From assembly GCA_013433145.1 (NCBI GenBank), contig CM024179.1, positions 2,838,501-2,902,500 of the forward strand: a DNA stretch of 64,000 nt. Direction: 5' to 3'. The number at the start of each line of letters is the position of its first letter. Position 1 is the first letter of the stretch. Below the pieces are notes generated by a model. That model made no database searches, had not been told where the DNA came from, and was given only the letters and a program-made list of their open reading frames with translations. Below, piece by piece: positions 736 through 35,074 of the stretch. The stretch is from Ascaris suum (Eukaryota > Nematoda > Chromadorea > Rhabditida > Ascarididae). Position numbers and translations under genes: made by a program.

Positions 736-835
736 CTGCCACGCTTTCTTCTAATAAGTAATTTTATTCGTTTACCGATATAACCAACGGCCGCATATTC
801 GAGCAATGCGCTGAATACCATCAAGAAACAAACTC
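736..835 (-). CDS. unc-49: unc-49-like exon 9 (TM3 and start of intracellular loop)
   Basis: The acceptor is AAAATTTTTAG|GA. Two bases complete the glycine, then VCFLMVFSALLEYAAVGYIG (TM3) and KRIKLLIRRKRG (basic start of the intracellular loop). I place the donor at GGCAG|GTTTGC (736); the frame stays open to about 612 with a non-loop-like sequence, so the 3' edge is less certain than the 5' edge. GTAAAC at 774-769 is another possible donor but would remove KRIK. TM4 was looked for in 1-735 on this strand and not found. Confidence 0.88.
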
Positions 836-33800: not shown

Positions 33801-35074
33801 AAAAAAATCATCACAGATTTGATGGATCAACGCAAACGTTTTTGATTGTTATCAGTGATGAAAGAAACAGGACATACATTATGTCTTATTAAAGGCGGCA
33901 AAACCAAAATAAAGTATGGACAATAGTGACCTGCACTGAACCTTAGTACTTCATAAAACCACATATAATACAGTTCTTCTCTGGTCTATGAAAAAAAATT
34001 TATTTTCAAGCGGTATAGTCATATTTATTTATATTAGAGAGACGACTACACTTTTTGAAAGACCATTTTTTAAAAGGCAACGCTGGAACGATATCTACAC
34101 TGATATTACAATTATAAGAATAGGTTTGAATTATCCATACTTAGCCAGGCTTTACTGCGAGCCGTCTTCAATTTTATAATCTCCTAGTGATGCTTTTTTT
34201 TAGCTCAAATGATGTTTTAATGCACCCTCATATCGGGAGAAAAATGAATGACAAACGAGAAAGGCATTTTTATGTCTCCCAATTAAAAAAAAATTGCAAA
34301 CTCATGCATTCTGATTATGAAAGTTCCAGGGAAATTTCTTAGTAAACTGAAGCGAATTAAAGAAAAACAACCATAAATTTGCTCTCAAGTGTAAAATAGC
34401 AGCTAACCAAGGAAGTCGTTAGTGGCCACTTATTTGAGCAAAATTTAAATGACCCAAAAGAACAGAAAAGAACTAACGTGGTGTGCCTTAATTTAGTTAT
34501 ACTACCATATATATCGCTATTACCGTTAATTTAAACATATATCTTGCAAACTCGGAAAGTTTGATTTTCGTGAAAATGTTCGCTAGACAAGGGAAATATA
34601 GGCATGGTATCTTCTGTATAAGTCACAATTAATTGAATATTAAAGTATGATGGACTTTTCTGTGCGCCTAATATAGCGTCTGTGTTCGGTCGAATCGAGT
34701 GCACGTCTTGTACGAGCATTTAACGTCTATAATGTGCTGATTGGTTGCTTTTTGAAAGAAAGTGAAAACATTCATACTGTATATGAAGAGGGAGTTCATA
34801 CGGTTCGAAACGCTCTCTTCGCAAAAGCAAATGAATAAGCAAATCGTCTACGTGAGAAGCAAAACGTATTTTGATAATCTATTTATAGAGCATTTAGCGT
34901 GATTAAAGATTGGAGTGTAGGACATCATGATGATTTACATATAAAGAAGTATTATGCGAAAATTCTAGATATTCATAGGTATTAAAGATATAAATAAATA
35001 ATAGCATACCCATACTCATTGGCGATTGTGCAATGAACTAGAAGTGAAATAATTAGAATAAAAATATGGCACAT
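736..35074 (-). CDS. unc-49: GABA-gated chloride channel subunit, UNC-49 type (9 exons, 3' end outside window)
   Basis: Pentameric Cys-loop receptor subunit of the plasma membrane, expected to open a chloride pore on GABA binding; in nematodes UNC-49 mediates inhibitory transmission at body-wall muscle. The join is 35074-35010, 32345-32180, 19915-19811, 15189-15050, 11885-11803, 8281-8147, 4537-4338, 3893-3845, 835-736, all GT-AG with phases that fit. Predicted order (residues from the 35074 ATG): signal peptide 1-18, ligand-binding domain, loop D arginine in DFYLRQSW (82-89), WKPDTFF (122-128), Cys loop C166-C180 with FPMD, loop C SSGDYSR, TM1 about 248-270, TM2 with PAR (277-279), TM3 about 316-335. 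The order and motifs match UNC-49/RDL-type GABA receptors; phrases such as ITIHVSSISAVSEVDM and NEKKSFFHLATTHNS are UNC-49-like from memory, without alignment. The loop remainder and TM4 are missing because the window ends. Whether the C-terminal half corresponds to the A, B or C isoform is unresolved. Confidence 0.95.
836..3844 (-). other. Intron 8 of unc-49-like gene
   Basis: About 3.0 kb between exons 8 and 9. Nothing beyond short chance frames. The minus-strand frame at 3068-3256 ends in ELPSKISEITDFL but has no donor and was rejected as an exon. Confidence 0.85.
3845..3893 (-). CDS. unc-49: unc-49-like exon 8 (TM2-TM3 loop micro-exon)
   Basis: The acceptor is TTTTGCAG|GCT and the donor CTTG|GTATTTTT, giving a 49 bp exon. 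It encodes AAMPKVSYVKSIDIFL plus the first base of a glycine. MPKVSYVKSID is the gating loop between TM2 and TM3. The phase fits exons 7 and 9 exactly. Confidence 0.96.
3894..4337 (-). other. Intron 7 of unc-49-like gene
   Basis: At 444 bp this is the shortest intron. The minus-strand frame at 4141-4335 only continues past the exon 7 donor and is not coding. Confidence 0.9.
4338..4537 (-). CDS. unc-49: unc-49-like exon 7 (loop C, TM1, TM2)
   Basis: The acceptor is TTAATTCAG|GT and the donor ACAAAT|GTATGTTC. Two bases plus 66 codons. GDYSRL ends loop C; QRNIGFYIIQIYLPSILIVV is the TM1 start; ISWVSFWLNRDATPARVALG leads into TM2 with VTTVLTMTTLMTTTN. The PAR at the inner end of TM2 marks an anion-selective pore. 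Pore position 2' is Ala and 6' is Thr, the combination associated with picrotoxin sensitivity in this family (established for RDL and UNC-49; inferred here). Confidence 0.97.
4538..8146 (-). other. Intron 6 of unc-49-like gene
   Basis: About 3.6 kb, AT-rich. I see no exon-like frame, RNA gene or long repeat in it. Confidence 0.85.
8147..8281 (-). CDS. unc-49: unc-49-like exon 6 (loop B to loop C)
   Basis: The acceptor is CATCTCTTGCAG|AC and the donor TCAG|GTAAAAG. Two bases complete the loop-B tyrosine, then GYSVLDVIYFLNNSKES leads to FELPQFVLIDVQF and KIERLSS, ending in the first base of a glycine codon. G-Y-x-x-x-D-I/V-x-Y and LPQF are conserved in GABA receptor subunits. The open frame continues upstream of the acceptor, but that extension would break the ES-Y-G-Y alignment. 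Confidence 0.95.
8282..11802 (-). other. Intron 5 of unc-49-like gene
   Basis: About 3.5 kb at the shared/variable boundary. No second copy of an exon 6-type sequence (LPQF, GYxxxDI) was found here. It contains a GC-richer stop-poor block at about 10780-11230 with a possible extra exon at 10901-10993. Confidence 0.8.
11803..11885 (-). CDS. unc-49: unc-49-like exon 5 (Cys loop)
   Basis: The acceptor is TTATTTCAG|G and the donor AGCT|GTAAGTTT. One base completes the arginine begun in exon 4, then 27 codons encode LTVTATCPMKLQLFPMDSQK and CKLEIES, with one base left over. The two cysteines are 13 residues apart and enclose FPMD, the family signature. The exon ends in loop B (ES|YGY), the point that in C. 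elegans unc-49 divides the shared and isoform-specific halves (about 188 residues in, from memory; here 186 complete codons). Confidence 0.96.
11886..15049 (-). other. Intron 4 of unc-49-like gene
   Basis: About 3.2 kb. A 104-codon minus-strand frame at 11997-12311 has no family resemblance; nothing else is seen. Confidence 0.85.
15050..15189 (-). CDS. unc-49: unc-49-like exon 4 (loop A / loop E region)
   Basis: The acceptor is TATTATAG|GTA and the donor CAAAG|GTATAG. It encodes VGVDYLEKLWKPDTFF, PNEKKSFFHLATTHNSFLRI and DPDGTVSTSQ, then AG of a split arginine codon. W-x-PDTFF-x-NEK and the LRI-x-x-x-GTV strand are diagnostic of anion-selective Cys-loop receptors. An open frame on the plus strand across this exon is its shadow. 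Confidence 0.96.
16421..16435. repeat. Poly-C homopolymer
   Basis: Fifteen C in a row, striking in such AT-rich DNA, followed by a short GC-richer stretch with GAGAGGCGGAGCGG. It lies in intron 3 (poly-G on the transcribed strand). Confidence 0.95.
17986..18143. repeat. (GA)n microsatellite
   Basis: About 158 bp of perfect AG/GA repeat in intron 3 of the unc-49-like gene, with a short CAGAG continuation. Polypurine on the plus strand, so polypyrimidine on the transcribed strand. Arg-Glu and Ser-Leu frames across it are artefacts. Confidence 0.99.
19811..19915 (-). CDS. unc-49: unc-49-like exon 3 (loop D region)
   Basis: The acceptor is ATATTTTAG|GAT and the donor ACG|GTGAGC, giving exactly 35 codons. 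It encodes DFTLDFYLRQSWQDPRLAFG and then NSDFIFQRDKVESLT. The aromatic and arginine of FYLRQ are the expected complementary-face GABA-site residues, and W-x-D-P-R-L is a family hallmark. It sits alone between introns of 12.3 and 4.6 kb and is too short for a simple open-frame search. Confidence 0.95.
23059..23204. repeat. Compound (TA)n-(GA)n microsatellite
   Basis: (TA) from 23059 to 23128 passes directly into a GA-rich tract with GGGA interruptions to 23204. It lies in intron 2 of the unc-49-like gene. Confidence 0.98.
23258..23310. repeat. TTTA-type tetranucleotide repeat
   Basis: Imperfect TTTA/TTTG units follow the compound microsatellite by about 50 bp. Confidence 0.85.
25283..25481. 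repeat. (TA)n microsatellite
   Basis: About 199 bp of uninterrupted TA, the longest such tract in the window, in intron 2 of the unc-49-like gene. Confidence 0.99.
32180..32345 (-). CDS. unc-49: unc-49-like exon 2 (start of ligand-binding domain)
   Basis: The acceptor is ACAATTTTCAG|G and the donor ATG|GTATGTGAG. One base completes the split codon, then 55 codons follow, including the sequon NTT, an N-terminal helix (ISNILNRLTD), and YDKRLRPKYGAEPVDVG then ITIHVSSISAVSEVDM, the first beta strands of a GABA-A-type subunit. The exon ends in phase 0 exactly where exon 3 resumes with DFTLDFY. Confidence 0.95.
32346..35009 (-). other. Intron 1 of unc-49-like gene
   Basis: About 2.7 kb between the signal-peptide exon and exon 2. 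Its existence depends on exon 1 being correct. No other feature seen. Confidence 0.65.
35010..35074 (-). CDS. unc-49: unc-49-like exon 1 (signal peptide)
   Basis: ATG at 35074 opens MCHIFILIISLLVHCTIA, a classic signal peptide with a likely cut after CTIA, followed by NEYG. The donor is TATGG|GTATGC, leaving two bases of a glycine codon that exon 2 completes. A second donor six bases earlier, GA|GTATGG at 35016, has the same phase and would drop two residues. An in-frame ATG at 35122 adds 16 residues and is preceded by an in-frame TAA at 35149-35147; I prefer the inner ATG because it gives a normal-length hydrophobic core. A TTTTATTCAG acceptor-like site ends at 35225 and could take a cis exon or a spliced leader (inference). 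The exon has no homology beyond being a signal peptide; phase and position link it to exon 2. Confidence 0.72.

Follow-up and report, generated by a model that had tools for sequence, protein, structure and literature searches.

In C. elegans, according to PMC6920096 and PMC11296113, unc-49 has five initial exons in common, followed by 3′ blocks for the A, B and C endings. PMC3990606 has unc-49 encoding the muscle gamma-aminobutyric acid (GABA) receptor, with UNC-49B allowing activation and UNC-49C being modulatory in C. elegans, names GABA receptors as the target of piperazine, and already places unc-49 in Ascaris suum. The present subject is a gene, here termed W, that begins in a 64,000-nucleotide stretch of A. 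suum DNA (‘the window’, C17:2838501-2902500, contig position being 2838500 plus window position) and is very probably the Ascaris orthologue, with shared exons 1-5 and three C-terminal blocks, designated A, B and C in order along it, among which splicing would choose. Like C. elegans unc-49, it has five shared N-terminal exons and three alternative C-terminal blocks (the C. elegans protein P0071 is identical at 134/185 positions of the N block and 151/254 of block C); unlike it, Ascaris has a tandem paralogue upstream, termed U, and introns that reach 12.3 kb, the intron figure being that of the Ascaris gene alone. The DNA examined amounts to 144 kb, comprising the window and eight 10-kb flanking stretches.

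Shared exons and alternative endings

W is on the minus strand, and from window position 35122 extends to 25.8 kb below the window (C17:2873622-2812706), so that the window edge cuts a gene with a total span of 60,917 bp. The nine W exons within the window are the five shared N-terminal ones and the first four of block A (Table 1). Their eight introns, in order 2664, 12264, 4621, 3164, 3521, 3609, 444 and 3009 bp, are all GT..AG and the phases agree. A sequence-only reading of the window had joined these nine exons with exact phases into one UNC-49-type receptor spanning more than 34 kb. The joins are borne out by the GT..AG introns, by the colinearity of exons 1-5 with Toxocara P0020 (tblastn, best E per exon from 1.4e-9 to 1.8e-27), by the exon sizes of U and by codon-position bias, and that reading's outer borders hold. 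The extent of the gene, which at 60.9 kb continues to C17:2812706, was understated; what was taken for one receptor is the N block together with part of just one of three alternative endings. Exons 6-9 and the next three are located by Brugia pahangi P0012 (tblastn), and a 246-bp open frame in the region of exon 7A (4329-4574) matches the first two transmembrane segments (TM1-TM2) of GABA and glycine receptors (phmmer against PDB, E 9.7e-30). The start of W is probably the ATG at 35122, since no other ATG comes before it after a stop, and the N-terminal Met of Toxocara P0020, whose leader is similar, aligns with it. The ATG at 35074, 48 bp downstream and previously taken as the start codon, is then probably internal (exon 1 being 65 bp from there).

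Table 1. Exons of W inside the window, with window positions given in the direction of transcription
Exon	Position	Strand	Length (bp)	Content	Supporting match
1	35122-35010	-	113 (from first ATG)	start codon and signal peptide; GT donor, phase 2	Toxocara P0020, tblastn E 1.4e-9
2	32345-32180	-	166	ligand-binding domain, N block	P0020, tblastn E 1.8e-27; 124/166 identical to U exon 2
3	19915-19811	-	105	ligand-binding domain (DFTLDFYLRQ), N block	P0020, tblastn E 3.7e-16; 60/102 to U exon 3
4	15189-15050	-	140	ligand-binding domain (WKPDTFFPNEKK), N block	P0020, tblastn E 1.7e-24; 101/140 to U exon 4
5	11885-11803	-	83	Cys-loop (C-x13-C); last shared exon; donor splits loop-B Tyr codon	P0020, tblastn E 9.5e-14; 64/83 to U exon 5
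6A	8281-8147	-	135	loop-B Tyr to loop C; first block A exon; phase 1 acceptor	U, blastn E 3.2e-17
7A	4537-4338	-	200	TM1-TM2, PARVALGVTTVLTM, 6′ Thr	U, blastn E 1.7e-33
8A	3893-3845	-	49	TM2-TM3 linker (AAMPKVSYVKSIDIFL)	49 bp in U too, 40/49 identical
9A	835-736	-	100	TM3	U, blastn E 2.5e-12

Completion of block A requires three further exons outside the window (C17:2837707-2837557, 2836989-2836831 and 2835925-2835842), the last of which carries TM4 and the stop codon. At 641 bp after block A, block B starts with a loop-C exon (C17:2835200-2835054) having the same acceptor phase, and it ends at C17:2825620; block C occupies C17:2821852 to 2812706. All three are entered at phase 1, each in turn supplying loop C, TM1-TM3, a cytoplasmic loop, TM4 and a stop, and the N block joined to A, B or C yields uninterrupted proteins of 494, 480 and 466 amino acids, with one stop apiece, at the end. 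Pfam domains PF02931 (ligand-binding) and PF02932 (transmembrane) score above cut-off in all three assembled proteins, from which can also be read the Cys-loop C-x13-C (CPMKLQLFPMDSQKC) and, before TM2, PARV in A and B and PSRT in C. The exon 5 junction lies inside the Tyr codon of ESY, a residue which we take, from other receptors, to be loop B of the GABA site. As the three acceptors, 3521 (A), 15102 (B) and 28450 (C) bp downstream of the exon 5 donor, all complete a Tyr, block choice leaves it intact.

With P0020, P0053 and P0012 as queries (tblastn, E up to 0.05), N-block exons in the 144 kb were found only in W and U, a count that disregards extensions of block-exon matches into neighbouring query residues, e.g. 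at C17:2822006-2821698. When N blocks from as many as seven nematode proteins served as queries (E up to 0.01), nine places were matched, five in W and four in U. Blocks B and C thus show no N exons of their own detectable by tblastn within the 144 kb.

From C. elegans unc-49 accounts (PMC3990606, PMC6920096 and PMC11296113), a mechanism can be drawn for W. Exons 1-5, spread over 23 kb, code for the signal peptide and the greater part of the ligand-binding domain; they would be joined constitutively, after which the exon 5 donor would pick one of the three distant acceptors. The choice would determine whether a subunit is of the UNC-49A, B or C type, the N-terminal domain staying the same while loop C, pore and cytoplasmic loop change, and the subunits would form GABA-gated chloride channels on body muscle, with an activating role for B and a modulatory one for C being carried over to Ascaris from C. 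elegans. For the W products we infer the splicing choice, expression, GABA gating and chloride selectivity.

The introns had earlier been described as very large for a nematode neurotransmitter receptor, which holds only in part. The largest, at 12.3 kb, is at the high end, but kilobase introns are usual in this genome, since 22 gaps between TM-exon matches of other receptor genes range from 104 to 5687 bp with a median of 1422 (37 of 80 PF02932 profile matches in the genome were hand-picked as neighbours resembling one gene). The N-block introns of W, 2.7-12.3 kb, are larger than those gaps, though the latter are from the TM region, where small exons may be hidden, and N-block introns of other genes are not among them. 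A 3-kb sample of the 12.3-kb intron 2 is single copy in a genome search except for approximately its last 350 bases. Within these is a dispersed repeat of about 240 bp (window 22664-22907), present in at least about 39 other places at 70-87% identity, a lower bound from scoring 40 of 162 candidates. The same intron contains a 199-bp TA run.

Identity of W and competing interpretations

The best match in a protein search (120 listed of 4978 matches; as these are clustered at 90%, the Toxocara P0020 entry may conceal an Ascaris B protein) is CBN-UNC-49 of C. brenneri, and two of the top four are named UNC-49, P0004 being CRE-UNC-49. The N block is identical to that of Toxocara P0020 at 181/202 positions. 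P0020 (Toxocara canis, I7DDT7) itself combines N and B, has a matching start Met and agrees with the Ascaris B protein at 451/480 positions. For block typing, 56 of 157 retrieved proteins were hand-picked, and a tree of TM1-TM3 segments was made with 65 rows and 107 columns, few enough for the program to issue a warning. (Left out were Acrobeloides segment 0, both C. nigoni P0047 segments, Diploscapter P0077, C. auriculariae, Enterobius and the A. lumbricoides copy of U.) In it, block B groups with the Toxocara and Brugia B type (99/83), to which P0065, named Unc-49B in its source, also belongs, and block C groups with Brugia (100/94) within a set of six that includes C. elegans P0071 (100/99). 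The orthology of B and C to the nematode unc-49 B and C types is thereby supported, and the 6′ Met that we take to be characteristic of UNC-49C is present in block C (PSRTVIGTMT). Block A would be the A type, judging from its position in the order and its best match. The earlier identification as UNC-49 is upheld by the protein search, the tree placement of B and C, and the layout of one N block with three C-terminal ones.

A closer fit to another Cys-loop family had been named as what would overturn that identification. Insect RDL and the GABA-A and glycine receptors of vertebrates are also strong matches, and insect RDL (9she_A, E 2.1e-127) and vertebrate GABA-A beta, which share the Cys-loop and PAR motif, are the closest solved structures. 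It is, even so, extremely improbable that the exons encode an RDL-like, glycine-gated or glutamate-gated channel rather than UNC-49: nematode proteins, with UNC-49 by name among the foremost, score best, the three-block layout argues for unc-49, and in three trees, without other nematode anion channels, the arthropod RDL outgroup splits from the nematode rows at 100/99 to 100/100 instead of grouping with W.

There remain two ways in which the nine exons might relate differently to one another. U and W are head to tail on the same strand, and the exon 5 donor of U has the same phase as that of W, so block A might belong to U, or be reached from U's N exons by read-through splicing, with the nine exons not being one transcript. 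We consider this very unlikely: U, which lies 39 kb upstream of W exon 1, is already equipped with a complete block and a stop, and the N blocks of Toxocara P0020 and Brugia P0053 are nearer to W than to U (311 vs 269 and 294 vs 266 bits) and are joined to B- and C-type blocks, so that a W-type N block is used in relatives. A more substantial possibility, doubtful on balance though it is, is that the shared exons join only B and C, with block A rarely used or silent. UNC-49A is barely detectable or of negligible expression in C. elegans (PMC11296113), so that the Ascaris A block may likewise be little used. This weighs against the scheme of three endings in use, as do the faster divergence of block A between Ascaris and Toxocara (176/223, from a 296-amino-acid fragment, P0034, vs 270/278 in B), the lack of a supported branch for A in trees whose A/U part is poorly resolved, a block C first-exon acceptor (AATTGAAG) that has no pyrimidine run, and GTCCGC as the donor of block A exon 10. 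Against silence, the seven exons of block A are all intact with a single, terminal stop, nonsynonymous differences from U are few in exons 2-9 while synonymous ones are saturated (below), and A-type segments are best-scoring in Haemonchus, Steinernema and Plectus proteins and tie with U in the Toxocara fragment. That fragment holds an A-type block, Toxocara being known here from proteins alone; no full-length A type named for Toxocara is among the 120 matches listed.

Predicted proteins of Trichinella (P0019) and Trichuris (P0024) each have two TM sets after one N block. Their second set has 6′ Met and falls with the UNC-49C type (97/84, on long branches), for which reason a layout with several endings may predate the divergence of these two from other worms.

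The tandem paralogue upstream

Beyond the window, at window coordinates 83096-73997 (C17:2921596-2912497), are eleven exons of U, numbered 2-12 by their W counterparts; its exon 1 was not found within the 144 kb. Sizes are the same as in W for exons 2, 4-9 and 12 (i.e. for seven of exons 2-9, exon 3 being 102 bp vs 105 bp in W), and exons 3, 10 and 11 are longer or shorter by multiples of 3. Introns are another matter: the ten of U are 358-2180 bp, vs 444-12264 bp for the same ten in W. Blastn of the upstream flank against the window (E up to 1e-3) gave six matches, each of them an exon (2, 5, 6, 7, 8 and 9), while exons 3 and 4 and all introns did not reach that threshold. A 53-bp match between the stretch below block C and a U intron was also seen. 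Exon by exon, DNA identity ranges from 59 to 82% in exons 2-9 and from 50 to 65% in exons 10-12. Over the 322 codons shared in exons 2-9, amino-acid identity is 83%, and differences at codon positions 1, 2 and 3 are 16%, 8% and 60%, with the proportion of nonsynonymous differences (pN) at 0.11 and of synonymous ones (pS) at 0.86, beyond saturation. The low pN against a saturated pS, and the concentration at third positions, are strong evidence that exons 2-9 are translated in both copies under strong constraint.

The protein product of U is already public as GABA receptor subunit beta (P0009 of Ascaris lumbricoides, matching U at 436/440 aligned residues and so representing the neighboring paralogue, not W), and U is the only Ascaris-named protein among the 120 matches listed, with no full-length A-type product of W there. 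Ascaris, Toxocara, Dracunculus, Thelazia and the filariae belong to clade III. In a tree of the N block and the loop C to TM3 region (21 rows, 314 columns, the 6′ column being masked; omitted were, among others, Strongyloides stercoralis P0007, Enterobius, Pristionchus, C. bovis, the partial Toxocara P0034, and Steinernema P0038 and P0070), a single clade (99/97) unites nine clade III U rows, those of Ascaris, Toxocara, Dracunculus, Thelazia and five filariae. Ascaris W is outside it, and is its sister only with 61/91. If that tree is right, the duplication took place no later than the divergence of ascarids and filariae, though the tandem position has been seen in Ascaris only. The available text of the open-licence literature searched yielded no description of a clade III unc-49 duplication, nor was the full W locus model with a tandem U bearing a hydrophobic 6′ residue found described there.

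That TM2 residue is Leu in Ascaris U where W has Thr, and among the nine clade III U rows it is Leu in eight and Phe in one. Leu is also present in Steinernema, Strongyloides, Parastrongyloides and Enterobius rows. A single clade of all rows with non-Thr at 6′ is disfavored by the approximately unbiased test (p-AU 0.031) with loop C to TM3 alone and 28 rows, whereas it is not rejected (p-AU 0.175 and 0.185) in the 21-row set that includes the N block but omits several long rows. The Leu in Steinernema and in Strongyloides could thus be convergent or not.

GABA receptors of Ascaris muscle are poorly sensitive to picrotoxin, and the 6′ residue has a role in the picrotoxin site. (The literature examined on Ascaris, picrotoxin and bicuculline does not, in its available text, state an insensitivity of the Ascaris muscle receptor, and nothing on the picrotoxin response of UNC-49C in nematodes was found in the open-licence literature searched.) As a speculative proposal, U might have arisen in clade III as a copy of the N block and an A-type ending that was retained as a tandem gene of its own, with Leu or Phe at 6′; together with block C, with its 6′ Met, Ascaris would have two subunits with an altered picrotoxin site, and U could conceivably be a live muscle subunit that helps explain the poor sensitivity.

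Remaining sequence and relevance of the locus

Elsewhere in the window, Rfam at gathering thresholds gave no match over the whole length. Eight of nine other open frames have no Pfam match, and one has a weak match to Smoothelin under the curated cut-off. A plus-strand frame of 102 amino acids at 63057-63365, with a basic Ser-rich start and no Pfam match, may represent part of an unknown gene, as one of its exons, in the interval separating U from W. Dinucleotide runs (AT, AG or TA), long and pure or nearly so, are at 31-197, 17986-18148, 23059-23128, 25283-25481 and 53242-53340, three of the five being in W introns, and approximately 1.3 kb upstream of W exon 1 there is a tandem repeat with a 50-bp unit in 2.6 copies (36393-36520).

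W is the orthologue of a known gene with a known, if unusual, layout, and as unc-49 is already reported in A. suum (PMC3990606) its novelty is low and the gene itself ordinary; interest attaches to U and to the length of the introns. Long introns in combination with a tandem copy can mislead annotation, and an accurate description of the Ascaris locus, second gene and three endings included, shows experimenters which subunits to clone. With the paralogue, a long-standing pharmacological contrast between Ascaris and C. elegans can also be put to the test.

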